Source of the DNA: a virus
DNA length: 47,143 nucleotides
Reading direction: 5' to 3' (one strand)
Virus record (IMG/VR): IMGVR_UViG_3300030389_002283
Span: 1-47,143 of that record
Shown: piece by piece, positions 1 to 47,143 of the stretch
How positions within the stretch are numbered: position 1 is the stretch's first letter
Layout of the letters: each line of letters begins with the position of its first letter
Notes under the pieces: generated by a model
The model's database searches: none
Told to the model about the DNA's origin: nothing
Seen by the model: only the letters and a program-made list of their open reading frames with translations
Made by a program: the position numbers and the translations under genes

Positions 1-1328
1 GCCTTAACATACGTAATACAACTGATGACGCAGATATTATTCTATCCTCTGATGATGGTAGTGGTGGTGTTACAGCTTATTTGACTCTTGATGGTAGTGC
101 TACAACTATCAACTTTGCAAAAAATGCCACATTTCCAGATGATGTAAAAATAGTATCTGGCACAGGTGGAGATTTAGAAATATTCCACAATGGTTCAAAT
201 AGCGTAATTAAAGACACAGGCACAGGCAATCTAAACTTAATATCAAATGGTGCAGAAATACAGCTTCTGGGAGCCTCTGGTGGTGATTACATGGGAAGAT
301 TTATCAGCAATGGCTCTGTTGAGCTTTATGAGGATAATGCCAAAAAATTTGAAACTACTAGCTCAGGCATACAAGTTACAGGCACAGTAAATGTTAATGG
401 TGCATACACTTTACCTACTTCTGATGGCTCAAATGGACAAGTCTTGCAAACAAATGGTAGTGGAACATTATCTTTTGCCTCTGCCTCAGGCACAACTATA
501 AACAACAACGCAAACAATAGGCTTATAACAGGGAGTGGCACAGCTAACACATTAGAAGGAGAGGCAAATGCTACATGGAATGGAAATACCCTAGCACTGA
601 CAGCAGGAACAGGAAATACTGGTATATCTTTAACTGATGGCTCAACAAACTATGGTTTTATCGGTGGTGGTAATGCACTCAAATCTGGTGGTAGTGCTAA
701 CGATTTTTCATTTAGAACAGATACTGGCTCTATAGACTTTTACACTAATGGTCAAAATTTGAGATTTGCTATTGAGTCGGATGGTGTAATTAACACAAGT
801 GAGTTAGTTCGCATTGGTAGTGGTAGCACATTTGAAAATGAAGCATTGAATGTCAAGAAAACAGGTAGTAATGATGATGCAGTTTTAGCCCTTGATAGCG
901 ATACTGGTGATGCTTCTTTTTACAGATTCATTAGATTTTATAAGAAAAACAATAATGAAAGTCTAGCTAAACTTGATTATGACAATTCTGCTGATACTGT
1001 TGGTCTTGCTGTTGAATCTGATGAAAGATACAAGGAGATTATTGGACCAGCAGTTGGTTTAGATTTAATTTCAAGATTAGAGCCAATTAAATATACAAGA
1101 AAAGATACAGGTGTAACTGATGGATGTGGTTTTGGCGCTCAGTCGTATAAAAAAGCATTTGATGATATTGGAGAATATGCTAGAGGTGTAACAGTTGGCT
1201 CAGATACAGTTAAGTGGGAATTAGATTATGCACCTTTAGTTCCTAATTTAGTCAAAGCTATACAAGAACAACAAGAGCAAATAGAAATGTTAAAAAACAA
1301 AATACAAGAACTAGAGGGAGAAAAGTAA
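1..1328 (+). CDS. Giant repeat fibre, C-terminal part with peptidase S74 chaperone domain (5'-partial)
   Basis: This is the 3' end of the gene beginning at 41967; the reading frame is open from base 3 with no stop, so an internal TTG near 81 is not a real start. It holds the last GDLEIFHNGSNS-type repeat, a Gly/Ser/Thr/Asn-rich beta region, and a C-terminal domain from codon 1017-1019 with SDERYKE followed by a short coiled coil rich in Q/E/K. SDxRxK is the hallmark of S74 intramolecular chaperones, which trimerise phage fibres and then cut themselves off just before that serine. The released piece would be about 103 residues. The stop overlaps the next gene's ATG. Fibre and S74 calls are firm; whether it is attached to tail or head is open. 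Confidence 0.9.
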   Translation, partial: LNIRNTTDDADIILSSDDGSGGVTAYLTLDGSATTINFAKNATFPDDVKIVSGTGGDLEIFHNGSNSVIKDTGTGNLNLISNGAEIQLLGASGGDYMGRFISNGSVELYEDNAKKFETTSSGIQVTGTVNVNGAYTLPTSDGSNGQVLQTNGSGTLSFASASGTTINNNANNRLITGSGTANTLEGEANATWNGNTLALTAGTGNTGISLTDGSTNYGFIGGGNALKSGGSANDFSFRTDTGSIDFYTNGQNLRFAIESDGVINTSELVRIGSGSTFENEALNVKKTGSNDDAVLALDSDTGDASFYRFIRFYKKNNNESLAKLDYDNSADTVGLAVESDERYKEIIGPAVGLDLISRLEPIKYTRKDTGVTDGCGFGAQSYKKAFDDIGEYARGVTVGSDTVKWELDYAPLVPNLVKAIQEQQEQIEMLKNKIQELEGEK

Positions 1329-1675
1329 TGGCAATAAATTTTCAGTGGGATGTTTCTAACTGTCATGTATATCCAAGTAAGAGTGGCAAATCAAATGTTG
1401 TTTACAAAGTAAATTACAAATTGAAGGCCACAGACGATACAAATGTTGATAGTGATGGTAAGAATTATTTTGCAGAGGATAATGGAAGGGTTTATTTAGA
1501 CACGTCTGATTTATCAAGTTTTATAAATTGGTCAAGCCTAAATGCCTCTGATGTGCAGGGTTGGGTAGAAAGTGCAATTGGCTCTAGTAATGTTACAGAT
1601 ATTAAAGCAAAACTTGAACAGGATATAGCAAAAAAAATAAATCCAAGTTCAGTAGCGAAACAATTAAGCTCATAG
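1328..1675 (+). CDS. Small phage protein, DUF7936-like
   Basis: A 115-residue protein whose start overlaps the fibre stop, so it is probably co-translated with it. It begins MAINFQWDVSN and has a mixed beta pattern, then a helical C-terminus with W-V-x-S and DIKAKLEQDI. This recalls small proteins following fibre genes in cyanophages and other marine phages (DUF7936: F-x-W-D-V near the start, a late G-W-V motif and an I-x-x-x-L-E/D-x-x-I segment). The family match is by eye. A role as virion accessory or fibre partner is inferred from position only. Confidence 0.6.
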   Translation: MAINFQWDVSNCHVYPSKSGKSNVVYKVNYKLKATDDTNVDSDGKNYFAEDNGRVYLDTSDLSSFINWSSLNASDVQGWVESAIGSSNVTDIKAKLEQDIAKKINPSSVAKQLSS

Positions 1676-1744
1676 TGGTAAAAAAAATAATGTGGACACA
1701 AATAAACAATGAATTTAAAATGTTTTTATTAGGAGATAAAAATT

Positions 1745-2032
1745 ATGGCAGATGCTAAAAAAACCAACGTAGATGAAAGAGTATTGACCATCACAAAAGA
1801 AGGTCAAGAAAATGTAGAGGTAAAATTTTCAGACTTAGATGATGAGGGTAAAGTTTTATTCAACAAGTTTTGGCTAATAAAAAAAGAAAAAGAAACTTTT
1901 ATTAGTGAGTCAAATTTTAAGGTTGAGCAGCTAAATATCTTAGAAAAATCTTATTTGAGTATTTTACAATCGTTTTTGGAAAAACCTGATGGCGAAGAAA
2001 AGAAAGATAATGAATCCAGTATCAAGACTTGA
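1745..2032 (+). CDS. Hypothetical acidic protein
   Basis: A 95-residue protein with a good TTAGGAGAT ribosome site before ATG 1745. It is charged, with an early beta segment (RVLTITKEGQENVEVKFSDL), a Phe/Lys-rich middle and a long helix that could form a coiled coil (EQLNILEKSYLSILQSFLEK). No signal peptide or membrane segment. I do not recognise the family. It lies between the fibre gene and the head-tail connector genes and overlaps the next gene, so it may be a small virion or assembly protein. Confidence 0.7.
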   Translation: MADAKKTNVDERVLTITKEGQENVEVKFSDLDDEGKVLFNKFWLIKKEKETFISESNFKVEQLNILEKSYLSILQSFLEKPDGEEKKDNESSIKT

Positions 2033-2180
2033 GCAATTTGAAGAAATTTGCTCAATAAGGCACGAAAGCATTGAAAAAAGATTAGATGCAGGGTCAAAAC
2101 GATTTGTAAGAATGGAACTACTAATTATGGGTTTATATGCAACTATAATTGGTACTTATGTTTTGGAGAAAGTTCTATAA
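2010..2180 (+). CDS. Small membrane protein with N-terminal coiled coil
   Basis: About 56 residues from ATG 2010; an in-frame ATG at 1989 would add seven residues and overlap the previous gene more. A charged helix (SRLEQFEEICSIRHESIEKR) is followed by one transmembrane helix near the C-terminus (MELLIMGLYATIIGTYVLEKVL region). This helix-plus-single-TM plan resembles XhlA-type and other small phage membrane proteins, but similarity is only architectural. A holin accessory is possible, though the recognisable holin lies at 17639. Confidence 0.6.
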   Translation: MNPVSRLEQFEEICSIRHESIEKRLDAGSKRFVRMELLIMGLYATIIGTYVLEKVL

Positions 2181-2195
2181 CTAATATTTATAATT

Positions 2196-2852
2196 ATGGC
2201 AGGCATACAGATAACGACAGCGCCAACAGTTGAGCCAATCACTTTACAAGAAGCTAAAGAGCATTTAAGACTTGACGATAGTGCCGACGAAAGAATTTTA
2301 CAACGCTATATTGAAACAGCAAGAAGATTCGCAGAAGAATATACAAAGCGCTCTCTTTCACAGCAAACAATATCTTTTTTTGCAGACGCTTACGATGAGT
2401 TGGCAGACCCATTATTTGAGGGTGTTAAGACTGGTCCATACTTAAATTATTACAAAAATTATATTGTTCTGCCTAGACCACCTGTAATCTCAGTCACAAG
2501 CGTTTCAACATTTGCAGACGATGATACTGAAACTACATTCGCAGCATCAAAGTACTTTGTTGATAATGTGCGTGAGCCTGCAAGAGTAGTGCTTAGACTT
2601 GGTGAAAGTTTCCCAACAGCTTTAAGAGTGGCGAATGCAATAAAGGTAGTTTACAGTGCAGGATATTCCTCTGTGTATGACATACCTGAGCCAATAAGGA
2701 TTGGAATTTTACAGCACGTTGCACATTTATACGAGCATAGAGGAGATATGTATGACGCCATTACGCCATTCCCTAAACAGCTAAAAAGTCTTTATGCGCC
2801 TTACGTTGTGCATGAGGGTTTAGGCTCGTCTTCAATTATGGCAATAGGTTAA
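2196..2852 (+). CDS. Head-tail connector (HK97 gp6-like)
   Basis: A 218-residue protein of the phage head-tail connector/gp6 family, which forms a ring beneath the portal. The N-terminus has the typical PITLQEAKEHLRLD signature, then helices (DERILQRYIETARRFAEEYT) and a TKRSLSQQT motif, followed by a beta domain with LPRPPVISV and the C-terminal helix PIRIGILQHVAHLYEHRGD. All of these are characteristic of the family. It ends in TAATGG overlapping the next gene, the start of the connector-to-tail-terminator block. Confidence 0.9.
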   Translation: MAGIQITTAPTVEPITLQEAKEHLRLDDSADERILQRYIETARRFAEEYTKRSLSQQTISFFADAYDELADPLFEGVKTGPYLNYYKNYIVLPRPPVISVTSVSTFADDDTETTFAASKYFVDNVREPARVVLRLGESFPTALRVANAIKVVYSAGYSSVYDIPEPIRIGILQHVAHLYEHRGDMYDAITPFPKQLKSLYAPYVVHEGLGSSSIMAIG

Positions 2853-3181
2853 TGGCAAATCACTTAGGAAGATTAAGACACAGAGTACAACTTCAACGCT
2901 CTACAAACACCACTGATACAGGTGGTGGTATGACAAAGTCTTATAGCATACTCAAAGACCTATTTGCTTTCGTAAGACCAGTGAATGGAAAAGAGTTATT
3001 TAGGCATGGCAAAGTAGAAGAAACTGTCACACATGAAATAACGATACGATACCGAGCAGATATTGGCACAAATGATAAAATTGTTTACGACTCAAGAGAA
3101 TTTAATATTCGTCACATAAGAAATATTGATGAAAGAAATAGATATATGCTCTTGGTCTGCACAGAGGGAGACGCAATATGA
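2852..3181 (+). CDS. Head-tail adaptor (SPP1 gp16-like stopper)
   Basis: A 109-residue protein of the phage head-tail adaptor family (SPP1 gp16, HK97 gp7 analogue) that closes the connector and accepts the tail. Diagnostic features are the opening GRLRHRVQLQR, the D-x-G-G-G-M loop, AFVRPVNGKELF, HEITIRYR and a late FNIRHIRNIDERNRYM strand pair. Length is normal. Its ATG overlaps the previous stop and it overlaps the next gene by four bases, so the morphogenesis block is translationally coupled. Confidence 0.9.
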   Translation: MANHLGRLRHRVQLQRSTNTTDTGGGMTKSYSILKDLFAFVRPVNGKELFRHGKVEETVTHEITIRYRADIGTNDKIVYDSREFNIRHIRNIDERNRYMLLVCTEGDAI

Positions 3182-3624
3182 GTTTTAAGATTACAGGCCT
3201 CAAAGAAGGTTTCCAAAAAATCGCAGACAAACGCCTGAAACAAAACCTTGAAAAAAATGTAAGAAGGGCATTGAACAGGAGTGGATTGGTAGTTGAAGGC
3301 AAAGCGAAAGAACGAATACAGCGTGGTCCACACACAGGAAAAATATACGAAAAATACAATCCAAGAAGAACGCATCGTGCTTCTGCTGCAGGTGAATCTC
3401 CTGCAACTGATACAGGTTTTTTGGTTAGTAACATATCACATAAGGAAGTAACACGTGAGGGCAAAGGATTAGAAATGGTAGTTGCTTCTAGCGCACCATA
3501 TTCAGAATTTTTAGAGTTTGGCACAAGATACATTCAAGAAAGGCCATTTTTACAACCTGCTTTAGAAGATAGCGCAGATGCTATTGAAAAAATATTCGCT
3601 TCGGAGAGCTTAATCAAAAAATGA
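3178..3624 (+). CDS. HK97 gp10-like tail completion protein
   Basis: A 148-residue protein of the HK97 gp10 family, involved in head-tail joining or tail completion. It begins SFKITGLKEGFQKIADK, has the helix NVRRALNRSGLVVEGKAKERI, a TGFLVSNISHK segment and the typical ending YSEFLEFGTRYIQERPFLQPALE. The EFGT...RPFLQPA pattern is the family signature. Start and stop overlap both neighbours by four bases. Confidence 0.9.
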   Translation: MSFKITGLKEGFQKIADKRLKQNLEKNVRRALNRSGLVVEGKAKERIQRGPHTGKIYEKYNPRRTHRASAAGESPATDTGFLVSNISHKEVTREGKGLEMVVASSAPYSEFLEFGTRYIQERPFLQPALEDSADAIEKIFASESLIKK

Positions 3625-4022
3625 GCATAGGACAATTTGCATTACAAGAAGCTGTTTACTCTCGCCTAAGTTCTGATTCAACGCTTACTTCTACTTTGGG
3701 TGCAAGTGTATTTGACGAAGTGCCAGAAGGACAAAGTGTGCCTTATGTTTCTTTAGGCTATGGCACAAGTGTTGATTACAGCACTAAAGACGAAGATGGT
3801 GGTGTTCATACTTTGACGTTTCATGTTTGGTCTGAATACAATGGAGCAAAAGAATGTAAACAAATCATGGACAGAATACATGATTTAATGCACAATCATA
3901 GTTTAAGTGTTTCAGGATTCAATCTGATAAATTTAAGGTTTGAATTTTCTGATATACTAAGAGACCCAGACGGAGTGACAAGACATGGGATTATGAGATT
4001 CCGTGCAGTGATGTTAGGATAA
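3621..4022 (+). CDS. Tail terminator/completion protein (DUF3168)
   Basis: A 133-residue DUF3168 protein, expected to cap the tail tube at the head side. Typical elements are the N-terminal helix FALQEAVYSRLSSDSTL, VFDEVPEGQSVPYVSLGYG, and the central LTFHVWSEYNGAKECKQIMDRI followed by a beta C-terminus ending in HGIMRFRAVMLG. Position directly before the tail tube protein fits the usual siphovirus order connector, adaptor, gp10, DUF3168, tube. Confidence 0.9.
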   Translation: MSIGQFALQEAVYSRLSSDSTLTSTLGASVFDEVPEGQSVPYVSLGYGTSVDYSTKDEDGGVHTLTFHVWSEYNGAKECKQIMDRIHDLMHNHSLSVSGFNLINLRFEFSDILRDPDGVTRHGIMRFRAVMLG

Positions 4023-4037
4023 TAATTAGGAGAAATT

Positions 4038-4481
4038 ATGGCAGCACAAAAAGGTAAAGATGTTTTAATTAAAATAAACACTACTGGCAGCACATACGTA
4101 ACACTTGGTGGTCTAAGGTCATCATCAATAACATTTTCTGATGAAGCAGTAGATGTTACCTCTAAAGATGATAATGGTCACAGACTGTTATTAGCAGGTG
4201 GTGGTGTTAATAGTGTGGCAATTAGTGGCTCAGGTGTATTTACTGATAGTTCAGCAGAACAAACATTAAGAACTGCATATTATGCACAGCAAAATACGTC
4301 AGATGGCTCATCTGCACAAACTGCAGCATTCAAGAATTTTCAATTTGTTGTACCAGATTTAGCAGTATTTACTGGTCCATTTATGATTGAATCTTTAGAG
4401 TATGCAGGAGAGCATAATGGTGAAGCTACATATTCTGTAAGTTTTCAATCTGCAGGTTATGTATCATTTGCAAGTAATTAA
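4038..4481 (+). CDS. Major tail tube protein
   Basis: A 147-residue protein matching the GTA/TP901-1-type tail tube family. It opens with GKDVLIKINTTGSTYVTLGGLRSS-type beta strands, then FSDEAVDVTSKDDNG, the conserved VDVTSKD-like motif of these tube proteins, and ends in an E-x-x-G-E-x-N-G-E-A-T-Y-S-V-S-F-Q-S-A-G strand. Good ribosome site (TTAGGAG) before ATG 4038. It should polymerise into the long tail around the tape measure at 5236. Confidence 0.88.
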   Translation: MAAQKGKDVLIKINTTGSTYVTLGGLRSSSITFSDEAVDVTSKDDNGHRLLLAGGGVNSVAISGSGVFTDSSAEQTLRTAYYAQQNTSDGSSAQTAAFKNFQFVVPDLAVFTGPFMIESLEYAGEHNGEATYSVSFQSAGYVSFASN

Positions 4482-4492
4482 TTAAAGACAAA

Positions 4493-4732
4493 ATGTTTAA
4501 AGAAGTAATTGTAAAAGTCAAAGATGATGAAATCATGGGAATGTTTGATGGTGTAAACCTTGAAATACCTAATGAAATTAAAGTCGGAGAATCTCTGAAT
4601 GTGGATGGGAAAGAGCTAAAAGTTTTATCCCATCTGCTTGATACGAGGGATAATATATTAAAAATAAAACTTGCAGGCGCAAGTCCAGAAAAAGGAGTCA
4701 AAAATGGCAAATCCTCAGAAGGGAGAGATTGA
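4493..4732 (+). CDS. Hypothetical small tail-module protein
   Basis: A 79-residue acidic, mainly beta-predicted protein (MFKEVIVKVKDDEIMG, then repeated I/V-K strands and LSHLLDTRDNILKIKL). The C-terminus SPEKGVKNGKSSEGRD overlaps the next gene by 29 bases and contains its ribosome site. No family recognised. Its position between tube protein and chaperone suggests a tail assembly role, but this rests on position only. Confidence 0.65.
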   Translation: MFKEVIVKVKDDEIMGMFDGVNLEIPNEIKVGESLNVDGKELKVLSHLLDTRDNILKIKLAGASPEKGVKNGKSSEGRD

Positions 4733-5054
4733 TTTAGATTTTGCAGGTAAAACTTATACCTGCAGATTAACGATAGATTCTATTATTCGCATAGAAGATG
4801 AGCTCAGTAAGTCAATTATTGAGTTAGCTTTGGATATTTCCAATGTCAAAGGTAAATTAAAAGATTTAGCTACTGTTTTATATTATGGTTTGCGTAATGG
4901 AGGCAATGATGTGGATAAAAAAGAAGTGCACAGACTCATTGAAGAAACAGGCCTAGTCAAAGTTTCAACCAACGTGGCAAATTTATTAAGTTTCTCTCTT
5001 ACAGACCCAAAGGAGAGAAGCGTGGGAAAGCCACAAAAGCAACCGAGCCAATAG
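4704..5054 (+). CDS. Tail assembly chaperone, short form (gpG-like)
   Basis: A 116-residue protein starting at ATG 4704 behind a clear AAAGGAG site. A beta start (DLDFAGKTYTCRLTIDSIIRIED) leads into helices (SIIELALDISNVKGKLKDLATVLYYGLR), typical of GTA/lambda-type chaperones located just before the tape measure. Near its 3' end is a GGGAAAG heptamer in slippery phase. A -1 shift there continues translation into a second chaperone domain (5030-5236) that has no start codon of its own. This form would be the abundant product. Confidence 0.8.
   Translation: MANPQKGEIDLDFAGKTYTCRLTIDSIIRIEDELSKSIIELALDISNVKGKLKDLATVLYYGLRNGGNDVDKKEVHRLIEETGLVKVSTNVANLLSFSLTDPKERSVGKPQKQPSQ
5024..5030 (+). promoter_or_regulatory. 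Programmed -1 frameshift slippery site GGGAAAG
   Basis: The zero-frame codons are GTG GGA AAG, so the heptamer reads G GGA AAG in X XXY YYZ phase. GGGAAAG is the heptamer used by the lambda G/T tail chaperone genes. Shifting -1 here leads into a frame that stays open to 5236. That frame is open back to a TGA at 4940-4942, and no ATG, GTG or TTG lies between that stop and the conserved domain. Confidence 0.8.
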
Positions 5055-5236
5055 ACTGGCAAAGCTATGTTGATGTTTGTCTTGGTACAATACAGGTAGC
5101 TCCAAATGACTTTTGGAATAGCAGTTTAAAAGAAATCTATGCTACGATAAGAGGATTCAAAAGTTTCCACACAACAAATGAGGAAGCTATGAAAAAAGAC
5201 GAATTAGAAAAGTTAATGGAGTTATACCCTGACTAA
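5030..5236 (+). CDS. Tail assembly chaperone extension, made by -1 frameshift (gpT-like)
   Basis: Read in the -1 frame after the slippery site, this adds about 68 residues to the upstream chaperone. The segment contains IDWQSYVDVCLGTIQVAP, then NDFWNSSLKEIYATIRG. A W-x-x-x-x-x-x-x-x-G-x-x-x-x-x-P-x-x-F-W-x-x-T/S-x-x-E motif is characteristic of the GTA-type phage tail assembly chaperone (Rcc01693-like). It stops in TAATGG overlapping the tape measure start. Standard ORF callers miss it because it has no start codon. The fusion is needed in small amounts to recruit the tape measure in lambda-like phages; that role here is inferred. Confidence 0.75.
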   Translation, partial: ATKATEPIDWQSYVDVCLGTIQVAPNDFWNSSLKEIYATIRGFKSFHTTNEEAMKKDELEKLMELYPD

Positions 5237-7116
5237 TGGCAAAAACAGTTGATGAACTAATAGTTAAAATTAGGGCTGACATGGGTCAGTTGAAAGCTCA
5301 GCTTCGTGATTTAGAAAGAAGCTCAGCAAAAACTGGTAAACAAGGTGGGCAAAATTTAGGTGCATTCGCAGCAGGTGGTGCATTAGCAGCAAACAGCACT
5401 TCTAAATTAATAGGTAGGATTGGTGCATTAGGTATTGCTTTAGCAGGAATACAAGGTGTAAGAGGTGTAGCAGCTGTTGGCTCTCGGTTTGAAGATTTAA
5501 AAGATAGTTTAGACACAGTATTCGGCTCGGTAGCTGCAGGTGACCAAGCATTCAATCGGATATTGAATTTCGCACAAACGACACCTTTCCAAATTGATAC
5601 TGCCACACAAGCATTTATTGCACTAAAATCAGCAGGAATAGAGCCGACCAATGACATGCTACAAACCTTTGCAGACACATCATCTGTAGCTGTTGACCAA
5701 TTAGGCACATTCAATGCATTGATACGTTTAGTGCAAAGGTCAGCAGGTGGTGGTCTTGGCTTAGAAGAATTAAACATGATTGCCGATAGAGGTATTGATG
5801 TTTTTGGTGGCTTAAAAGATGAATTAGGCCTTAGCAGAGATGAAATTTCAGAGTTTGGTAAATCTGCAGAAGGCGCAAAAACAATAGTTGATGCGCTCAT
5901 AAGGTCACTAAATAAACAGTTTGGTGGTGCAATGGCTACTAAAATGGATAATCTTTCAACAGTTTCCTCTAATATGGAAATCGCATTCAGAGAACTTGGA
6001 GACGAAATATTTAAAAGTGGGATAGGAGATATGATGAAAGGTCTTGCAGCCACAATGACAGACTTAGCAAACGCTACGTCAAGATTTTTTAGGGCTGTAA
6101 GAGGAGAAAGAACTCTGCAAGATTTAGGTATAACAACTGAAGACCCAGTTCAAAAGCTAAAAGAAATAGACGCTGAAATTAAAAGACTACAAAAACAATC
6201 AGAAGAAGTAAGTAGCAAAGATTTTATGATGTTGCACTCATCTGACGCAGAAGGCCTAATGATTGCAAAAATATTGATTGAGAATGAAAACCAAATTAAT
6301 ACATTACTCAAAGAAAGAAAAGCTCTAGTGGATGCAGAAAATAATGAAACAGAAAAAAATAATTCACTAACACAAGAACAAATCGGCCTTCGCACACAAT
6401 TTAAGAAAATATTAGAGGACTCAGTGCCAGAAGTAGAAAGGCTAAATAATTTGTTAAAAGAATTAAACCAATTTGAGGGTTTGACCGATAAAGAGGGTGT
6501 ATTAGTGTTTACGAAAGAGGAGATAACACAAATAGAAAATTATATAAATGCTTTAATAGACGCTGAAAACCAACAAGACAAAACTGTAAGCTCAGCACAA
6601 GCAATGGCCGATGCAATTGCAATTGCTACAAACAGCTTCGCCATGTCATTTGCTGATGCTTTACTAAACTCAGGCAATATGCTTGAGTCATTTAGAAATT
6701 TAGCTGCAGACATTGTCAAACAGATAATAGCGACTTTTATGCAGTTAGCTGTAATAAATCCTATTTTGAACTCAGTATTTAGTGGTGTTGAAGGTTATAC
6801 ACCTGCACCAACGATGGAACTCGCAGGAGGAGGACGCTACAGTGGTGGACAACCTTTGCTTGTTGGTGAGCGTGGTCCAGAGTTACTTATTCCAAACTCA
6901 GGTGGGACAGTTTTGAATAACATGAATACCAAAAATGCTTTAGGAGGTGGAGGCACAACTGTCGTGAATCAAAGTATTAATTTCGCAACAGGTATCAATG
7001 CAACTGTAAGAAACGAAGTATTACAGCTTCTACCTCAGATTGCTGATGTTACTGCTGCTGCTGTGCAAGAAAAAGCTGTAAGAAGCATAAGGTATAAAGG
7101 TGCTTTCAGTGCCTAG
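5236..7116 (+). CDS. Tail tape measure protein
   Basis: A 626-residue protein that sets tail length. The N-terminus VDELIVKIRADMGQLKAQLR is the typical tape measure opening, followed by a Gly/Ala-rich hydrophobic stretch, a conserved QTPFQIDTATQAF-like segment (here TTPFQIDTATQAF), a charged helical and coiled-coil middle (residues about 300-450), and the C-terminal signature LAGGGRYSGGQPLLVGERG then PELLIPNSGG. Using the usual ~0.15 nm per residue, the tail would be roughly 90-95 nm. Start overlaps the chaperone stop. Confidence 0.93.
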   Translation: MAKTVDELIVKIRADMGQLKAQLRDLERSSAKTGKQGGQNLGAFAAGGALAANSTSKLIGRIGALGIALAGIQGVRGVAAVGSRFEDLKDSLDTVFGSVAAGDQAFNRILNFAQTTPFQIDTATQAFIALKSAGIEPTNDMLQTFADTSSVAVDQLGTFNALIRLVQRSAGGGLGLEELNMIADRGIDVFGGLKDELGLSRDEISEFGKSAEGAKTIVDALIRSLNKQFGGAMATKMDNLSTVSSNMEIAFRELGDEIFKSGIGDMMKGLAATMTDLANATSRFFRAVRGERTLQDLGITTEDPVQKLKEIDAEIKRLQKQSEEVSSKDFMMLHSSDAEGLMIAKILIENENQINTLLKERKALVDAENNETEKNNSLTQEQIGLRTQFKKILEDSVPEVERLNNLLKELNQFEGLTDKEGVLVFTKEEITQIENYINALIDAENQQDKTVSSAQAMADAIAIATNSFAMSFADALLNSGNMLESFRNLAADIVKQIIATFMQLAVINPILNSVFSGVEGYTPAPTMELAGGGRYSGGQPLLVGERGPELLIPNSGGTVLNNMNTKNALGGGGTTVVNQSINFATGINATVRNEVLQLLPQIADVTAAAVQEKAVRSIRYKGAFSA

Positions 7117-7996
7117 AACAATTGCAATGCCCTCAACACCTAACTTTGTTAGTAGTAGTTTTAGCTTACAGAGGTCAATTGCTTCAACACAATCACCATT
7201 TACTGGCTCATACAAAACACAAGAATTTGATTTTGTGGGTTGGCAAGCAGACCTCACTCTACCAAAAATGAGGAGAGCAACAGCTGTAAATTGGCAGGCA
7301 TTTTTTATGCAATTACGTGGTCCAATCAACTATTTTAAATTTGCTGACCCAGATGCCCTTGCTAATACAGGCACTTATGATGCAGCACATTTGATTTCTG
7401 ACCCAAGAATTAATCAAACAAGCGTGACATTGTCATTTACTGCTTCAAATTCAAGAGTCACAGCAGGAAGCTCAGTATTTGGAGATTTAGTGACAGGTGA
7501 TTTTATACACATTACTGGACCAACAAAACCTGAAAATACAGGCACATTCAAAGTTACAAATGCAGTAAGTGGCACAGTTTTAGAGATTAGTGGTGATGCC
7601 GACATTCTGGATGAGTCAAGTGTTTCCTCTTGCAAAGTGCGACAAAATGTCAAAGGCGCATCAGCACTTTCACTAGAAGCAAGTTCAAACTCGGCCACAG
7701 GCACAATAGCAGTAGGTGATTATCTACAAATACAGGGCGCTGCTGATACCACAAGCAACCCTGCACAATTAGTGCAAGTAGTAGAGGCTGCTACAGAAAC
7801 AAGTCAAGGTGGTAGTGCTTTAAATCATTTTTCACTGAGAATAGAGCCTAATTTACGTGCAGATTTTGCAGATGGTAATTTTGCTGTATTTACTAATCCA
7901 AAAGGTTTATTCAGATTGGAAAACACCACAGTAACTTGGAGCGCAGACCGACTTTCTAATTACAACTTCGCATTTTCCTGTATTGAGGTGATTTAA
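7109..7996 (+). CDS. Distal/minor tail protein
   Basis: About 295 residues from GTG 7109, which has AAAGG eight bases upstream; ATG 7127 would give 289. The N-terminal part has FSLQRSIASTQSPFTGSYK and QADLTLPKMRRATAVNWQ, then FFMQLRGPINYFKFADPD. This is the pattern of a tail protein that commonly sits between the tape measure and DUF2163 genes in GTA-like siphophages. The rest is beta-rich. It probably forms part of the distal tail ring. The start is uncertain. Confidence 0.8.
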   Translation: MPRTIAMPSTPNFVSSSFSLQRSIASTQSPFTGSYKTQEFDFVGWQADLTLPKMRRATAVNWQAFFMQLRGPINYFKFADPDALANTGTYDAAHLISDPRINQTSVTLSFTASNSRVTAGSSVFGDLVTGDFIHITGPTKPENTGTFKVTNAVSGTVLEISGDADILDESSVSSCKVRQNVKGASALSLEASSNSATGTIAVGDYLQIQGAADTTSNPAQLVQVVEAATETSQGGSALNHFSLRIEPNLRADFADGNFAVFTNPKGLFRLENTTVTWSADRLSNYNFAFSCIEVI

Positions 7997-8655
7997 TGGC
8001 TACAAGATTTGATAGTCTTTCAGCAACACTCAAAACAACTTTACAGAATTTTTCTAAATCTGATGCTTTAAGTGGTTTTGTTGCCATTGAAGCAAAATTT
8101 GATTCAGGCACAATAAGGCTTTGGACTGGATTAGAAGATTTGACTATTGGTGGAAACACATATACAGGTGCAGGTGACTTAATATCTATTTCAGAAATAG
8201 AAGATACCAATGAATTATCTAGCACAGGCCTAACACTTAGTCTTTCTGGTATGAATGCAGATATTGTAAATTTAGCCTTGACTGAAAACTTTCAAAATAG
8301 GGTTGTAAATATTTTTCTAGGCTTTTTGACTGGTAAAAACGAAAGTGCAGGAGAGTTTCAGATTTATAGTGGCAGGATTACAGATATGAGTATATTTGAT
8401 GGTCCAAGAAATAACTCAATAAATATTGAACTAGAAAACAGGCTCATAGATTTTGAAAGGCCATCAAATTTAAGATATACAAAAGAGTCACAACAAGACT
8501 TATTCTCTGGTGATAAAGGTTTAGATTTTGTGACTGACATACAAGAGGCTGATTTGAATTGGGGTCCAACTAAACTTAGTGGACGTGGTGGCTCTGGACC
8601 ACGTGGGGATAATGATTTTGGTGATGATAACTTTAGAAGAACAATACAAGAATGA
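7996..8655 (+). CDS. Tail hub protein, DUF2163-like
   Basis: A 219-residue protein with the order and motifs of the DUF2163/phage baseplate hub family (GTA ORF13-like): FVAIEAKFDSGTIRLWTGL, DLTIGGNTYTGAGDLISIS, then ELSSTGLTLSLSGM and a C-terminal NRLIDFERPSNLRYT. The Gly/Asp-rich tail is low complexity. Its start overlaps the previous stop by one base. It probably belongs to the tail tip complex with the 9061 protein. Confidence 0.82.
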   Translation: MATRFDSLSATLKTTLQNFSKSDALSGFVAIEAKFDSGTIRLWTGLEDLTIGGNTYTGAGDLISISEIEDTNELSSTGLTLSLSGMNADIVNLALTENFQNRVVNIFLGFLTGKNESAGEFQIYSGRITDMSIFDGPRNNSINIELENRLIDFERPSNLRYTKESQQDLFSGDKGLDFVTDIQEADLNWGPTKLSGRGGSGPRGDNDFGDDNFRRTIQE

Positions 8656-9068
8656 GAAAAAAAAAGAATTGGGAACAAAAAACTTTTGACCATATTGCAA
8701 AATACAAAGATAAAGGTTTTGCATGGGGAAAATGGGACTGTGTACGCTTCTCAAACGAATACATTCGCTCTGTAACAGGTAAATCTGCCATACCTAAGGG
8801 TATTGACTGGAAAAATGAAAAAACTGCTCTAAGTGCAATTGCAGAGCTTGGTGACAATTTCCCACATACTATAAACAATGTGCTAAATAATTTACCTTTG
8901 CAAAAAATTGAAAAACAATATGTCCAAGTTGGTGACATTGTGCTTTTCAAAGAAGAAGAACACCTTTTGGGGATTTATGATGGAAATTTTATACAAGCTG
9001 TAACAGAAACAGGCTTACAAGCTAAACCGATTGATTTGGCAATAAACATTTGGAGAATAAATGGCTAA
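8652..9068 (+). CDS. Tail-tip NlpC/P60-like peptidase (DUF6950 type)
   Basis: A 138-residue protein with WGKWDCVRFSNEYI, the catalytic-Cys motif of GTA ORF14-like and DUF6950 cell-wall peptidases, and downstream VQVGDIVLFK with HLLGIYDGNFIQAV, where the His region of the fold is expected. It sits between DUF2163 and the tail-tip protein, exactly where such peptidases occur. It may help the tail tip breach peptidoglycan. Assignment of the second catalytic residue is by eye. Confidence 0.8.
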   Translation: MRKKKNWEQKTFDHIAKYKDKGFAWGKWDCVRFSNEYIRSVTGKSAIPKGIDWKNEKTALSAIAELGDNFPHTINNVLNNLPLQKIEKQYVQVGDIVLFKEEEHLLGIYDGNFIQAVTETGLQAKPIDLAINIWRING

Positions 9069-12000: not shown

Positions 12001-12195
12001 TCTGTAGCTAATTATACGTCCTCAGTCGGCGCAGGAGCATCACAAGCATTTGTTTTAGCAGCACAGGTATCAGCAAGTACTACACAATCAAAACTATTTC
12101 AATTACAAGGAAAGCGTTTATCATCTGATACAGATTTAGTTTCTTTTAACACTGCAATTTTTGCCATAAAATTAACAGCAAGTACCCAATCATAA
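9061..12195 (+). CDS. Large tail-tip / host-specificity protein (gpJ-like)
   Basis: A 1044-residue protein. Residues ~1-60 are a hydrophobic Ala/Gly/Val stretch followed by PPKGVTNGNYG and NPVAPRQIVYGECRVGG, a typical beginning for GTA ORF15/lambda J-like tips. Residues ~330-500 form the hub-like part (LEINLQNSSGLGNIYNHVKP-like segment, QVGDWVYVTNERL). Fibronectin-III-like repeats follow (APSAPSNLSATDNVEGGILI, then TWTNPSEADF). The C-terminal ~300 residues are Thr/Ala/Ile-rich with pentapeptide-like I-T-A-x-x-I-A repeats. It probably contacts the receptor and channels DNA through the outer membrane. Confidence 0.88.
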   Translation: MAKALENAVRAAVVAFVVVGATFLILSGGTYAFAFSRVVQGALLAGVGALVNTLITKPPKGVTNGNYGAKLTTTNPVAPRQIVYGECRVGGTVIYMKTRGTQNSILDMIVAIAGHEIQSIEKIFINKQEITSTTQTVNSTTVSEVTTSDFVNTENENSFTNGRLIRFVTGLGADNQEMNTHTINTTDFTGDHDLKGIAFIHFEMVYDREKLNAVPEISYRIKGKKVVDPRVHATNTAFSNNPALIVRDILKDTRYGLRATDDEINDNTSAGGNFISAANACDVQVADKDGTNHNKFTANGFFDGTTGIGEAIEGILSSCAGQLTYTNGKFNIFTGVAQTPSATITDDDLLEEINLQNSSGLGNIYNHVKPIYIDEANNFTATDSFLRKSGNAESGNSAVDFLAIDTPSGETQSNYKKILEMRLPFTTNDSQAQRLGKLALNYQRRTQTFNAKVNLGFLEVQVGDWVYVTNERLGFTNKTFQVISSVFSDVGSAEQPVLGLSLGLKEIDTNVFAFDTSADYGANTTGTVGDDGTIALSAPTSLAGTATTSLNDDGSSNSKIDVSFTNATGITPLGTEVEIRQTNTFGTPNNMNFVSYPNSTTTFQGLQSGQSFFLRARHTYDNNRKSDYTSVIQVNTAGDTSAPSAPSNLSATDNVEGGILITWTNPSEADFQATKVYRQSGTSTPTNDDNLVATVSGQAGKTSQLFENNTHGVSPSTTVQYFVRAVDSSGNHSSFVGPEAGSYISFQDGGDLLGGTGGGIFTFSASGNLNAPNDSTFNSTFGRQPRNKDLVIVTNTAATPKTQKIYEYGSQTANSTGGGGSFTEKTNSDFITGDLIVQNSITATEIAAQTITASQIASDTITGGQITGTTLSGIFADLGTITAGTINADNITVQNLEADNIKDDGVNETRIFQANILGDYGISAATSGNTFLTTSFQTLESFTLAASKEAGTHAIIAVGDVGGTITSGSQVRFDILHGGTSVANYTSSVGAGASQAFVLAAQVSASTTQSKLFQLQGKRLSSDTDLVSFNTAIFAIKLTASTQS

Positions 12196-15850: not shown

Positions 15851-15854
15851 GCAA

Positions 15855-18118: not shown

Positions 18119-18136
18119 TTTTGTAATTTGTGTAGC

Positions 18137-18153
18137 GTAAACTCAGGTAAACT
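18137..18153 (+). repeat. Direct repeat GTAAACT x2 before small lysis gene
   Basis: GTAAACT occurs at 18137-18143 and 18147-18153, a ten-base (one helical turn) period, between the holin stop and the AAGGAG ribosome site of the next gene. It could be a binding site, or chance in AT-rich DNA. Confidence 0.35.
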
Positions 18154-18167
18154 ACATAAGGAGTAGC

Positions 18168-23294: not shown

Positions 23295-23935
23295 ATAGTT
23301 TCGTAAGCATCAATAAGATTGCTAAACACCTCTATATTTTGGTCATTTTCTTCTAGCTCTCCTCTATGTTGCTTTATGCTTTTGGCATTAGCTTCATAGA
23401 ATTTCTGACAGTTAGCATCGTCTGGCTTCCCTGCTACTTTTCTAAGTGCATCAATGTATTTACCTATGTCATCATAAGCGCTCATTTTAGCGCCTTTGGT
23501 GTCAAGCAAAACATATTTCTTTTCTAAAGTAGGCGCTGCTGCTTTGTTATTAATGGCATTATCCATCTCAAAAGCAGAGGCAAACTCACCACCTGATAGG
23601 CCAAGATTAGCTAAAGCTCTACCAATGGCAGAAGTTTCACAATTTTCCAACGCAGAAGTTGTATTGACCATGCCCTTATTTCTAAATTCTTCGGCAAATC
23701 CATTAGCAACCTCACGCCAATTACCATCTTGATAAACAGAGATTGTTGCTTTTACAACCACTCTCTCTAAATCAGAAAACTCAACTTCGGTCTTAATTTG
23801 TGCATCAATACCGAAATGCTTACGAAACACATCTGTCCTTGTGGACACCTGTGTATAGAACTTCCCTTTAAGACTAATTTTGTCTTTTTGAGGAAGGTTA
23901 GATAGCTCAGCTATCGCATTATTCAATCTATTCAT
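23291..23935 (-). CDS. Candidate ssDNA-annealing recombinase (Erf/Sak-like)
   Basis: A 214-residue protein from ATG 23935, which has GGAG six bases before it. The N-terminal 130 residues hold a beta-beta pattern and the segment SALENCETSAIGRALANLGL, a motif frequent in phage single-strand annealing proteins of the Erf/Rad52-like group. The C-terminus is a charged helical region (DIGKYIDALRKVAGKP). It is encoded directly after a RecB-like exonuclease gene, the classical pairing for phage two-component recombination. Family assignment within the annealing proteins is uncertain. Confidence 0.6.
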   Translation of the reverse strand: MNRLNNAIAELSNLPQKDKISLKGKFYTQVSTRTDVFRKHFGIDAQIKTEVEFSDLERVVVKATISVYQDGNWREVANGFAEEFRNKGMVNTTSALENCETSAIGRALANLGLSGGEFASAFEMDNAINNKAAAPTLEKKYVLLDTKGAKMSAYDDIGKYIDALRKVAGKPDDANCQKFYEANAKSIKQHRGELEENDQNIEVFSNLIDAYETI

Positions 23936-24695
23936 TTTTACTCCATATAGATTTAGCAAATAACTTTTCTTTATCTGACCACATCCATGAATCAAGATTA
24001 GGAAAATACATATCTGCAATTTCATTTTTATCACCAATACTAAGCACACGCTCAATTGCTTTTGCGCCTCTCAGTAGGTCATCAAAGTTAGCTTCAACGT
24101 CATCAATAACTACTGATTTGACGTCTGCTTTAGTTTTGCTTACACATATGTAATCAACTATCGGCAAACAGTCTGTCGCAGTAGCATACAAACTCAGTTG
24201 TCGCTTTACAGTATTTGGCACTTCATTAGGCATACGACCAACTGTCTTAATATCCCTAACAATGCCCTCATAACGAAGGTCAATAAATCCAATCATAGGA
24301 ACAGATAAACCGACGTCCATTGTGATTTGTTCTTGGTAGCTTGTAGGCTTACCAAAGGTGTCATAAAACTCAGCAGCACAATTAAAAAAATGTGGTACTA
24401 AATGTCTTTCTTTAGAGTTTTTTTCTTCATGTGGGTCAAGTCCTGCATTTTCTGATAATGCTCTATATCTTTTCATAGCTACATTAGTGCAGTTCTTTTT
24501 GCTTGGTTTTTCACTAGATAGGTAAACACCAATGGCTTCATCAACCACAGTACCTCTAAAAGCAGCTGGACTTGCATCACTTTGCATACCAAATAAATAT
24601 TTAGCACACCATTTTGCAGGCTCAGTTATAAAAGTATTTACATGGCTTACAGATAAATGCTCAATACCATGCTTTGCGAAAACGTCATTACTCAT
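23928..24695 (-). CDS. PD-(D/E)XK nuclease, RecB/Cas4-like
   Basis: A 255-residue nuclease. Visible motifs are LSVSHVNTFITEPAKWCAKY at the N-terminus, FRGTVVDEAI, the active-site strands MIGFIDLRYEGIVRDIKT (D ... D-x-K) and the C-terminal QLSLYA (Q-x-x-x-Y). These match the RecB-family exonuclease group. It overlaps the annealing gene by 8 bases and is the first gene of the leftward early block, behind the shared operator. Likely a 5'-3' exonuclease for recombination. Confidence 0.88.
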   Translation of the reverse strand: MSNDVFAKHGIEHLSVSHVNTFITEPAKWCAKYLFGMQSDASPAAFRGTVVDEAIGVYLSSEKPSKKNCTNVAMKRYRALSENAGLDPHEEKNSKERHLVPHFFNCAAEFYDTFGKPTSYQEQITMDVGLSVPMIGFIDLRYEGIVRDIKTVGRMPNEVPNTVKRQLSLYATATDCLPIVDYICVSKTKADVKSVVIDDVEANFDDLLRGAKAIERVLSIGDKNEIADMYFPNLDSWMWSDKEKLFAKSIWSKNE

Positions 24696-41616: not shown

Positions 41617-41967
41617 AGTGCAGGTTTTCATCATTTCACAATAGAACAAGGTGCTACCTTTAGCAAAGTTTTAACGCTTAAAGATAGTTCCAACACAGTA
41701 ATAAATCTTACAGGCTACGCTAGTGCAGAGATGGACTTACGTGCCGAACAAGACTCATCATCAGAAATATTAACACTAACAACAGCTAATGGCAGGATAG
41801 CATTAGGTGGCTCTGCAGGAACTGTTACTTTAACTATATCGGCTTCTGACACTGCAAACCTGAGTGTGCAAGATGGCGTATATGATTTAGAGATTGTTGA
41901 TGGCTCTAGCAATATTTTTAGGATTTTAGAAGGAACTTTTAGCGTAAGAGGTAATGTAAGCAGATAA
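41614..41967 (+). CDS. Small beta-rich structural protein
   Basis: A 117-residue protein with FHHFTIEQGATFSKVLTLKD, DLRAEQDSSSEILTLTTANG, and GVYDLEIVDGSSNIFRILEG. The pattern F-x-x-x-x-G-A-T-F plus a late G-x-Y-D-L-E resembles small baseplate or fibre-anchor proteins (BppU N-terminal-like) in marine phages. Its TAA overlaps the fibre ATG, so it may attach the fibre to the virion. Confidence 0.65.
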   Translation: MSAGFHHFTIEQGATFSKVLTLKDSSNTVINLTGYASAEMDLRAEQDSSSEILTLTTANGRIALGGSAGTVTLTISASDTANLSVQDGVYDLEIVDGSSNIFRILEGTFSVRGNVSR

Positions 41968-44900
41968 TGGCCATAAGTAGAGTCACAGTATCAGACACCT
42001 CAACAATCAATTCTGTCACTATTACAGATACCAATGCAATATCTGTAGTCACAGTTGGAACACAAGGTCTTAGTGGTCCAAACGCTATACTCGGCAGAAG
42101 TGTGGTGGACTCTACTGCAAGTACCTCAGGCTCACTTTTAATATACGACCATGACAATACACGATGGGAAGATAGTCAAAGCACAAGGTCACAGTCGCTG
42201 ACAGCTAAGTTATTCAATTTACAATTTACTACTGGTGGCGCAACTGTTACTCAAATTTTTGATGAGGATGACATGTCATCAAATAGTGCAACAGGCCTTG
42301 TCACACAACAATCAATCAAAGCCTATGTGGATGCGCAATTAACAGCACAGGATTTGGACTTTCAAGGCGACTCAGGTGGCGCTTTATCCATTGATTTAGA
42401 TAGTGAAACGCTTGATATTGCAGGTGGCACAGGTATTGATACAAGTGGCTCTGGTAATACAATTACAGTTGCCATAGACGCAACTGTTGCCACACTCTCT
42501 GGCGCACAGACTTTGACCAATAAAACAATTGATGCTGACAATAATACCCTTTCAAACATTGAAGTAGATAATTTAAAGTCAGGTGTGTTAGATACTGATA
42601 TATCTTCAGTAGCAGGCACAGATACAACTTTAGCTTCAGCAAAAGCAATCAAAACATATGTGGATGCACAGCTTACTGCACAAGACCTAGATTTTCAGGG
42701 TGATTCAGGAGGTGCATTGTCAATAGACTTAGACTCGGAAACATTAGACATAGCAGGTGGTACTGGTATAGATACTGCAGGCTCAGGTAATGTCCTAACT
42801 GTTAGCATTGATTCCACAGTCGTAACTTTATCAGGCACACAAACACTAACTAACAAAACTTTAACAAGTCCAAAAATAAATGATTCAAATGCAATAACTG
42901 CAACAGGTGCAGAGATAAACATAATTGATGGTGATACTTCTGAATCAGCAGTAGTTATAGTTGATGCTGACCGATTTATTGTCAATGATAGTGGCACAAT
43001 GAAGCAATTAGCAGCTTCAAGAATATCAACATATGTCGCAGGCACAACAGAAACACTAACAAACAAAACAATTAATGCCGACAACAACACAGTTTCAAAT
43101 ATAGAGGTAGATAACTTCAAAGCCTCTGCCATAATCTTGGAATCAGAGGGTATAGGCAGTAATGATAATGACACCACAATTCCAACCTCAGCTGCAGTTA
43201 AAGATTATGTAGATACACAGATTACAGCAGAGGATTTAGATTTAACGTCTGATAGTGGCACAATTGCAATAGACCTTGATAGCGAAACGCTCACAATTGC
43301 AGGTGGCGAAGGAATAGACACATCAGCCACAGGAAACACTCTTACAATAGCTGCCGAAGATGCAACAGCCTCAAATAAGGGTGTGGCCTCTTTTGATTCA
43401 ACAGATTTTACAGTTTCATCAGGTGCAGTCACAGTCAATGCTGAAAGAGTTCAAGATATCGTTGGTGCAATGGTATCTAGCAACACGGAAAATGGTATAT
43501 CAGTTACTTATGAAGATAGTGATGGCACATTAGATTTTGATGTTGCAGACCCAACACTAACTTTTACAGGTGATGTTACTGGCTCTGGCACAATTACAAA
43601 TCTTGCAGATACTTCTTTTGCCCTAACAATTGCAGCAAACTCAGTTGCACTCGGCACAGATACAACAGGAAACTTTGTTCAGGCAATTTCAGGCACTTCA
43701 AATGAGATTGAAGTTAGTGGAAGTGGCTCAGAAGGAGCAACAGTAACAATTGGTCTGCCTGATGATGTGACTATCGGAAACGACTTAATTGTTACAGGTA
43801 ATCTTACTGTTCAAGGAAGCACAACCACATTAAATACTGCGACATTGGATGTGGAAGATAAAAATATTACGCTAAATAAAGGCTCAGGTGATACTAGTGG
43901 CTCTGCTGATGGTGCAGGTATCACTATACAAGATGCGGTAGATGCATCTACTGACGCTACCATTTTGTGGGACGCAAGTGCTGATATATTCAAAACTTCA
44001 CATGGCTTAAGAATAAATGGAGATACCAAAACATTTTCTGTTGGCGCAGGTGGTGATTTCTCACTTGTTCATAATGGCACTGATACTTTTATGGCTAACT
44101 CTACTGGTCATTTTTACATAACCACTACCTCAGATGATAAAGACATAATTTTTAGAACAGATGATGGCTCTGGTGGTGTCGCTGAATACATAACAGTTGA
44201 TGGTAGTCAAGAACGAACTGTTTTTCATAAACCTATAAGAATTGATGATAATGTTGGTTTTAATGTCGGCACAGGAAGTGACTTCCAAATAAGCCATAAT
44301 GGTACAAATAGCATTATTGCAAACCACACAGGAACATTATTCATAACACAAAATGTTGATGATGGTGATTTACAGCTTAGAAGTGACGATGGCTCTGGTG
44401 GAACTACGTCCTATATAACTTTAGATGGTAGTGCAGTTCGTACTGAGTTCCCTAAAGACACAAAACACTCAGATGATGTTAAGGCTTTATTCGGTGGTGG
44501 TAATGACTTAGAAATTTTCCACAGTTCATCTAACAATCATTCAGTAATAAAAGAATCTGGTAGTGGTAATTTAAGAATAAATGCAGATGATTTGATAATT
44601 TATAATACTGCTGTAAATGAAACTAAAGCATCATTTTTAACAGATGGTAGTGTCAGGTTGTTTCATAATGATATTAAAAAGTTTGAAACAACCTCAACAG
44701 GTATAGATGTTACTGGAGCAGTTGTTGCCACAAGCCTAGATATTAGTGGAGACGTTGATGTAGATGGCACTCTTGAAGCAGATGCGATAACTGTCAATGG
44801 CGAAACACTTGCCGAAGTAATAGCTGACACAGTGGGAGCAATGGTCGGCTCAAACACCGAAACAGGAATAACAGTAACATTCAATGATAGTGACAACACT

Positions 44901-47143
44901 TTGGATTTTGTTGTTGGCACATTAAACCAAGATACGACTGGAACTGCTGCTCTTGCAACACAGGTCACAGTTTCGGCAAATAATTCTACAGACGAAACAA
45001 TATTCCCAGTCTTTGTAGATGGTGCAACAGGCTCACAGGGTTTAGAAACAGACACAGGCTTCACTTACAATCCCTCAACTGGTTTAATCTCCTCTGCAGG
45101 CCTTACAGCGTCTGGAACAATAACATTTGGCAGTATATCTGATGGCAGTATAACAATTACTGCTTTTGTTGATGAGGATAACATGGCCTCTAACTCAGCT
45201 TCCTTAGTACCAACACAACAATCTGTAAAAGCCTACGTTGATGCCGAAGTATCAGCTGCAGGTGGTATGTCAAGTTTCATTATGGAAGATGATGATGGCA
45301 CAGAAGTAACAATCAATAACAATAAAGAAGTTAAATTTATTGGCTCAGGCATAACAACAAACTTTACTGATACAAGCACAGGCTCTGATAGTGACCCATT
45401 TGATTTGACCTTTACAATTGACGCTGCACAAACAGGTATAACCTCTATCCTTGCTACAGATTTAAAGATTGGAGAGGACGACCAAACAAAAATAGATTTT
45501 GAAACAGCAGACGAAATACATTTCTATGCTGCAAATGCAGAACAAGTTTTTGTATCTGATGGCGTTTTTGGACCACAAACAGACAGTGACGTAGATTTAG
45601 GAACAAGCTCAGTAAGATTCAAAGACGCTTACTTTGATACCTTGAATACAAGTGGAACTATTACATCAGGAGCAAATAGTGGAGTTATAAAAGAAATAGG
45701 AAGTGACTTATCATTAGTACAAGGAGCAGTTGGTTTAAGAATTAATGATGCAGCTTCAGCAATCTCACCAACCACAGCTAGTGCTAATAATGATGATGCT
45801 GTTGATTTGGGTGTCAGTAATATTAGATTCAAGGATATTTATATATCAGGAAAACTCACTAATGACGGGAGCGGAGGCGTATCGTTAGACGCTGCAGGAG
45901 ATATTACTCTTGATGCTGATGGTCAAGATGTTCTTTTCAAAGATGGTGGCACACAATTCGGCTCTATCAGAAAAAATGGAAACAATATTCAACTCATGGC
46001 CTCCATACAAGATGGTGATATTACATTTCATGGTGATGATGGTGGCTCAGCTATCACTGCCCTTACACTTGATATGTCAGATGCAGGTACAGCAACTTTT
46101 AACCACGATATAAAATTAGCTGATAATGGGAAAGCTGTATTTGGTGATGGCAGCGATTTAAATATATTCCATGATGCAACTGATGGCAAAATAGAAAATG
46201 AAACTGGTGACTTAAGATTTTTACAAAAAGCAAATGATGGTGACATTATATTTTCAAGTGATGATGGCTCTGGTGGCACTATTCAATATTTCAGAGTTGA
46301 TGGTGGTAATGAAATTGTAGAATTTAACAGAGATGTAAAACTTGGTGATAACGTAGATTTGAAGGTTGGAACTGGTAACGATTTACAGTTATTGCATGAT
46401 GGAACAAATTCAATTATTAAAAATACTTCTACAGGAAATCTAATTATCAGAAATACAGTTGATGATGGAGATTTGATATTGCAGTCAGATGATGATTCTG
46501 GTGGTGTTACAAACTATATAACTTTAGATGGTAGTGGAGCACAAACAATATTTGGACAAGATGCAAAATTTGGTGATAGTGTCCTATTAAAATTTGGAGC
46601 TAGCAATGACCTGCAGATAAAACATGACGGCTCAAATTCATTTATAGACCAAGTTGGTGTTGGTAGCCTTAACATACGTAATACAACTGATGACGCAGAT
46701 ATTATTCTATCCTCTGATGATGGTAGTGGTGGTGTTACAGCTTATTTATCACTTGATGGCTCTGAAGGTAATATTTTTTCTAGTGTCAATTTCAGAGCAG
46801 TTGATAACAAATTGATTGGTGTTGGTAATGCACATGACCTAAGACTAAAACATGATGGCACAGATTCTATAATTCAAAATGAAACAGGTAGCCTAAGTAT
46901 TATAAATAATACTGATGACGGAGATATTATTTTTAAAACAGATGATGGCTCAGGCAGTAATACAGCTTATTTAACTCTTGATGGTAGTGCTACAACTATC
47001 AACTTTGCAAAAAATGCCACATTTCCAGATGATGTAAAAATAGTATCAGGCACAGGTGGAGATTTAGAAATATTCCACAATGGTTCAAATAGCGTAATTA
47101 AAGACACAGGCACAGGCAATCTAAACTTAATATCAAATGGTGC
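41967..47143 (+). CDS. Giant repeat fibre, N-terminal part (3'-partial; continues at base 254)
   Basis: Starts at ATG 41967 (MAISRVTVSDTSTINSV) and stays open for 5177 bases to the window end. Joining 47143 to base 254 gives about 2083 residues. Residues ~115-520 contain long Asp/Ser-rich repeats (YVDAQLTAQDLDFQGDSGG twice, 111 residues apart, then a variant). The second half holds many beta repeats of 75-76 residues with the core GNDLQLLHDGTNSIIKNxTGN plus DDGDxxLxSDDGSGG. The S74 domain at the far end makes this an autoprocessed trimeric fibre. It lies between capsid and connector genes rather than after the tail tip. Confidence 0.9.
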   Translation, partial: MAISRVTVSDTSTINSVTITDTNAISVVTVGTQGLSGPNAILGRSVVDSTASTSGSLLIYDHDNTRWEDSQSTRSQSLTAKLFNLQFTTGGATVTQIFDEDDMSSNSATGLVTQQSIKAYVDAQLTAQDLDFQGDSGGALSIDLDSETLDIAGGTGIDTSGSGNTITVAIDATVATLSGAQTLTNKTIDADNNTLSNIEVDNLKSGVLDTDISSVAGTDTTLASAKAIKTYVDAQLTAQDLDFQGDSGGALSIDLDSETLDIAGGTGIDTAGSGNVLTVSIDSTVVTLSGTQTLTNKTLTSPKINDSNAITATGAEINIIDGDTSESAVVIVDADRFIVNDSGTMKQLAASRISTYVAGTTETLTNKTINADNNTVSNIEVDNFKASAIILESEGIGSNDNDTTIPTSAAVKDYVDTQITAEDLDLTSDSGTIAIDLDSETLTIAGGEGIDTSATGNTLTIAAEDATASNKGVASFDSTDFTVSSGAVTVNAERVQDIVGAMVSSNTENGISVTYEDSDGTLDFDVADPTLTFTGDVTGSGTITNLADTSFALTIAANSVALGTDTTGNFVQAISGTSNEIEVSGSGSEGATVTIGLPDDVTIGNDLIVTGNLTVQGSTTTLNTATLDVEDKNITLNKGSGDTSGSADGAGITIQDAVDASTDATILWDASADIFKTSHGLRINGDTKTFSVGAGGDFSLVHNGTDTFMANSTGHFYITTTSDDKDIIFRTDDGSGGVAEYITVDGSQERTVFHKPIRIDDNVGFNVGTGSDFQISHNGTNSIIANHTGTLFITQNVDDGDLQLRSDDGSGGTTSYITLDGSAVRTEFPKDTKHSDDVKALFGGGNDLEIFHSSSNNHSVIKESGSGNLRINADDLIIYNTAVNETKASFLTDGSVRLFHNDIKKFETTSTGIDVTGAVVATSLDISGDVDVDGTLEADAITVNGETLAEVIADTVGAMVGSNTETGITVTFNDSDNTLDFVVGTLNQDTTGTAALATQVTVSANNSTDETIFPVFVDGATGSQGLETDTGFTYNPSTGLISSAGLTASGTITFGSISDGSITITAFVDEDNMASNSASLVPTQQSVKAYVDAEVSAAGGMSSFIMEDDDGTEVTINNNKEVKFIGSGITTNFTDTSTGSDSDPFDLTFTIDAAQTGITSILATDLKIGEDDQTKIDFETADEIHFYAANAEQVFVSDGVFGPQTDSDVDLGTSSVRFKDAYFDTLNTSGTITSGANSGVIKEIGSDLSLVQGAVGLRINDAASAISPTTASANNDDAVDLGVSNIRFKDIYISGKLTNDGSGGVSLDAAGDITLDADGQDVLFKDGGTQFGSIRKNGNNIQLMASIQDGDITFHGDDGGSAITALTLDMSDAGTATFNHDIKLADNGKAVFGDGSDLNIFHDATDGKIENETGDLRFLQKANDGDIIFSSDDGSGGTIQYFRVDGGNEIVEFNRDVKLGDNVDLKVGTGNDLQLLHDGTNSIIKNTSTGNLIIRNTVDDGDLILQSDDDSGGVTNYITLDGSGAQTIFGQDAKFGDSVLLKFGASNDLQIKHDGSNSFIDQVGVGSLNIRNTTDDADIILSSDDGSGGVTAYLSLDGSEGNIFSSVNFRAVDNKLIGVGNAHDLRLKHDGTDSIIQNETGSLSIINNTDDGDIIFKTDDGSGSNTAYLTLDGSATTINFAKNATFPDDVKIVSGTGGDLEIFHNGSNSVIKDTGTGNLNLISNG
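46368..47143 (+). repeat. Tandem 225-228 bp repeats in the fibre gene
   Basis: Repeat cores begin near 46368, 46596, 46824 and 47049, one every 225-228 bases (75-76 codons), with older copies at about 44041, 44262, 44490 and 46140. Each encodes G-x-x-D-L-x-x-x-H-D/N-G-T/S-N/D-S, then T-G-x-L, then D-D-x-D-I-I-x-x-S/T-D-D-G-S-G. The window start matches this array with one unit missing. Confidence 0.85.

Follow-up and report, generated by a model that had tools for sequence, protein, structure and literature searches.

Changes in the repeat content of phage fibres have been described in several systems. In phage T4, duplications are known in gene 37, which encodes the long-tail-fibre adhesin (Tetart et al. 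1996, J Mol Biol 258:726, cited in PMC5221442). As far as that citation conveys, the T4 variants likewise gain or lose a small tail-fibre domain in frame, but they were selected in the laboratory and linked to host range, whereas the 75-codon array repeat described here is known from sequence alone. Mixed repeat lengths also occur in a plaque-purified stock of the Campylobacter phage CP220. There, as we propose here, repeat number varies within one population, and slippage or recombination was suggested; however, the CP220 repeats are about 75 bp long and lie nearly all outside genes, whereas the present units are 225 bp long, about half identical and part of a fibre gene (PMC2853527). Finally, tail-fibre genes are among the most variable regions between concurrent marine phages, in so-called metaviromic islands; that work concerns under-recruiting regions, and unit loss at base resolution is not described in it (PMC3909814). 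The event that we report thus belongs to a known class, that of fibre or repeat-number change. In the literature searched, a limited collection, we found no report of variation of this exact 225-bp unit, nor of its base-resolved junctions.

The DNA analysed is a stretch of 47,143 nucleotides (hereafter the window; positions 1 to 47,143 of IMGVR_UViG_3300030389_002283), a near-complete phage genome whose contig is cut inside a tail-fibre repeat array (Table 1). A pattern search found one other contig across the junction of its two ends, IMGVR_UViG_3300030450_002525 (29,606 bp). Bases 1-2899 of this contig correspond to 44245-47143 of the window and then run on, unbroken, into position 254. Thus, the ends are contiguous, in agreement with the circle junction assumed in the original prediction, and the full array is real. 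The genome can therefore be corrected: positions 1-253 are redundant, giving a second version of a place already covered by the tail; the ends are to be joined; and the open frame at 41967-47141 and the frame at 3-1328, which look like two fibre genes, belong to one tail-fibre gene of 2083 codons. The two contigs differ at a single base (12482) over 44245-47131 plus 254-20057, and IMGVR_UViG_3300030450_002525 carries the 225-bp unit, that is, the long form. Elsewhere in the viral collection the last repeat unit was found only in this contig, and a nucleotide search among cultured phages gave no match.

Near the junction, the two contigs also differ at 47132, 47141 and 47142 (equivalent to 242, 251 and 252 in the head), where both window ends agree with each other. 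Three of the four substitutions that precede the N gap of the second contig therefore fall within 11 bases beside the junction; local conversion would be our guess.

Table 1. Positions in the window of the fibre gene, the two versions of its array junction and the candidate recombination genes.
Feature	Position	Strand	Remark
Head copy before the jump	1..82	+	identical to 46666-46747
12-bp stretch TACAGCTTATTT containing the jump	71..82	+	common to both units
Head copy after the jump	83..253	+	= 46973-47143 except 83 (G/A) and 158 (T/A), both synonymous
Short junction in the head	spans TTACAGCTTATTTGACTCTTG		G at 83, T at 158
Tail-fibre gene, 3' part	254..1328	+	
Peptidase_S74 (chaperone of endosialidase) domain near the fibre C terminus	1017..1172	+	
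Predicted Rad52-like single-strand annealing protein, 254 residues	23291..24055	-	candidate recombination agent (putative role)
PD-(D/E)XK exonuclease-like protein beside the Rad52-like one	23928..24695	-	
Tail-fibre gene, 5' part	41967..47143	+	continues at 254
First fibre repeat block, two full and one partial unit	44019..44603	+	
Second fibre repeat block, spacing 225-228 bp	45918..47143	+	runs into the junction
Tail copy of 1-82	46666..46747	+	
225-bp (75-codon) repeat length absent from the head	46748..46972	+	boundaries ambiguous by 12 bp
Tail copy of 83-253	46973..47143	+	

The gene product is predicted to be a tail fibre with a C-terminal S74 intramolecular chaperone. Both gene parts match PHROG tail-fibre families, and the Peptidase_S74 family (PF13884) matches marginally, at 22.1 bits for a curated cut-off of 22. 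The array profile matches the gp28 fibre of cyanophage P-SCSP1u (PDB 8i4m, PMC10575957; E 2.9e-10), and stretches related to the array occur in P-SSP6, S-CAM9 and CRP phages. Identity to the fibres of cultured phages is mostly 25-33%, with a best value of 47% over a short stretch, and unit spacing in those fibres is less regular. The array units are predicted to be all-beta, with about seven strands each, at modest confidence (pLDDT 67); PDB fold matches of the array model were set aside as not meaningful. The other genes encode a major head protein, a central-tail-fibre-J-like protein and, as a difference from P-SCSP1u and the related cyanophages, a terminase, portal, head protease, tape-measure and distal-tail set of the long-tailed type.

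How do the two versions of the junction differ? When coordinates were recomputed, head positions 1-82 matched their tail copy with 0 mismatches, and positions 71-253 matched 46961-47143 except at 83 (G versus A) and 158 (T versus A). The original prediction had placed the second match at 84-253 (46974-47143, with the exception of 158), and its coordinates, its two mismatches and its in-frame skip of one fibre repeat all hold: the offset from head to tail shifts from 46665 to 46890, exactly 225. With BLAST E values of 6e-41 and 8e-97 for the two matching pieces, chance is excluded. The 12 bp at 71-82 match both tail positions, so the jump may be placed anywhere within them. The two neighbouring units are only 53% identical at offset 225, and this stretch sits within their longest identity run, a common word of 13 bp. 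The jump, just after a conserved DDGSGG motif, joins equivalent sites of two units with reading frame and repeat register kept; the unit in the head is therefore a hybrid, whose beginning is that of one unit and whose end is that of the unit after it. At base 83, the head has G where both tail units have A, so this base derives from neither parent as these were assembled. The two differences fall at third codon positions and are both synonymous (TTG/TTA, Leu; TCT/TCA, Ser), for which the expected fraction among random changes is 0.24 per site. IMGVR_UViG_3300030450_002525 agrees with the tail at both positions, so that only the short version has G at 83 and T at 158.

We compared the array with the fetched loci that carry the same repeat family. 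Among these relatives, fibres hold 2-17 units, and the spacing seen most frequently between units is 225 bp (82 of the 169 spacings under 300 bp in related phages). One pair, L101 (3300025138_000476) and L111 (3300001589_000093), is 99.95% identical over 6077 bp, and yet L111 has two gaps, the first of exactly 225 bp and a later one of 444 bp (two units). As at the window's junction, whole units are missing in frame, the gaps lie in the DDGSGG region, and substitutions are found near the junctions. L112 and L118 form a second pair. Downstream of a conserved unit motif their identity is 99.5%, but upstream they carry different arrays, the switch falling near position 4860, in the motif DLEIYHDGSNSYIKD-GTGNLRI; whole parts of the array have thus been exchanged. 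What relatives at 87-88% protein identity have in common is the C-terminal module and not the array. Unit number did not differ among near-identical cultured isolates with related fibres, nor in most other near-identical contig pairs. The window and L101/L111 provide two candidates for unit loss, resolved to the base, within one fibre-repeat family.

Two array lengths are present within one contig, and the long form recurs in an independent one, all of this at the level of contigs. We think that the sample probably held at least two versions of the array and that the head is a haplotype that lost one unit through recombination at a 12-13 bp identity. The short form would then be a real virus genome, and the contig may have broken at the array because the two versions coexisted. 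This reading is favoured by the position of the jump at the longest identity and the exact in-frame unit that it skips, by private synonymous substitutions in a genome that elsewhere hardly differs from IMGVR_UViG_3300030450_002525, and by the long form and contiguous ends of that contig. It is further favoured by the L101/L111 pair, which differs by 225 and 444 bp at the same motif, by the L112/L118 exchange together with the range of unit numbers among relatives, and by a candidate annealing module in the genome (see below). It is weakened because the evidence for the short version comes from the first 82 bases of a contig, and that of L111 is also close to a contig end; because neither short junction recurs in the other viral contigs searched (a search of the collection with the L111 junction returned only L111 itself); and because cultured isolates and most near-identical pairs keep their unit number.

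A different origin has a small but real chance of being right: the short version could be a chimeric molecule, formed by template switching at 12-13 bp during amplification or library preparation and assembled onto the contig end. A jump exactly at the longest shared word is what template switching would give, and it also fits that the short form sits no more than 82 bases from the contig end and occurs in no other contig searched. However, the substitutions at 83 and 158 are absent from both the tail and IMGVR_UViG_3300030450_002525, and both are synonymous, unlike random errors, at an expected 0.24 each. Another rival is an artefact of assembly or scaffolding, in which a short piece was joined through a short overlap or a repeat was collapsed; here the private substitutions call for a template other than the long form. 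The site, a contig end within a repeat array, is a plausible one for such an error, and the second contig contains a gap of 10 N, a sign of scaffolding in such assemblies. Common short-read assemblers, however, use k-mers longer than 13 bases, and units whose longest shared word is 13 bp could not be merged through a common k-mer. Moreover, longer repeats in the fibre gene stayed uncollapsed, among them an exact repeat of 23 bp, and we consider an assembly origin distinctly unlikely. Of the two options offered by the original prediction, assembler collapse is therefore disfavoured, given units of 53% identity and two private substitutions, and a population with mixed repeat numbers gains indirect support from the long form in the second contig and from L101/L111, which differ by one and then two units. 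The original interpretation is thereby supported in part; its further proposal, that such recombination would change fibre length in the virion or host range, is a hypothesis. It is very improbable that the source of the head is another, related virus whose fibre is shorter, and that no repeat was lost within the population. Private substitutions and the mosaic nature of fibre arrays among relatives would be in keeping with such a source, but the identity of 1-82 to the long form and the exactness of the hybrid unit imply very low divergence.

If the head is indeed a shorter haplotype, then an inexact overlap of contig ends can signal population variation and not error. Exact end overlaps were found in none of 20 related contigs, and inexact ones in three (G005, G009 and G012). 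IMGVR_UViG_3300030102_003297 has an inexact end overlap of 220 bp at 97.7% identity outside the fibre array (L157, positions 1-220; L158, the last 220 bases), which suggests that such imperfect overlaps are a general feature of contig ends. In IMGVR_UViG_3300030430_000907 (58357 bp; L028, L031), positions 454-1035 and 57776-58357 both correspond to the fibre C-terminal region, at 89% nucleotide identity; the contig may carry two fibre genes, or its ends may be a further case of divergent overlap. An enrichment of breakage in the array was also considered and dropped, since about 13 of 35 array-bearing contigs end in the fibre gene and about 15-16 would be expected at random, by an approximate hand tally.

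To explain the loss of a unit in the preferred reading, that of a shorter haplotype, we propose that two neighbouring, half-identical units would recombine at their longest shared stretch (12-13 bp), leaving a clean hybrid unit with frame and register preserved. The deletion could proceed by replication slippage or by single-strand annealing, either of which would give a deletion of this kind between directly repeated units with 12-13 bp of identity, and a Rad52-like protein and an exonuclease of the phage may assist it. The protein encoded at 23291-24055 belongs to a PHROG family of unknown function and has no curated Pfam or NCBIfam match. Its predicted structure has a beta-beta-beta-alpha core (pLDDT 64.5), and the best 15 PDB matches of the model in Foldseek are all RAD52 (E 1.3e-3 to 2.5e-2), with low TM-scores (0.2-0.4). 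The model is thus only suggestive of a Rad52-like annealing protein, which might be the one that makes the deletions. We also note a likely recombination module at 22582-24695 on the minus strand, comprising a weak SSB-like protein, the predicted Rad52-like fold and the PD-(D/E)XK exonuclease. More broadly, one could envision the fibre arrays of these marine phages as built-in diversifiers, in which units are kept only half identical save for a short conserved DNA core. There, the phage's own Rad52-like protein would remove or swap entire units, in frame and time after time, so that several fibre lengths persist in one population; we consider this generalization quite unlikely.

On the plus strand, the region 25009-28729 contains a cassette resembling those for DNA base hypermodification. 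Its genes encode a ParB-like/methyltransferase-family protein, a Tet_JBP oxygenase (PF12851, 6e-25), a glutamine amidotransferase, a GNAT acetyltransferase and an amino acid:DNA transferase, ADDT (PF18724, 4e-21).
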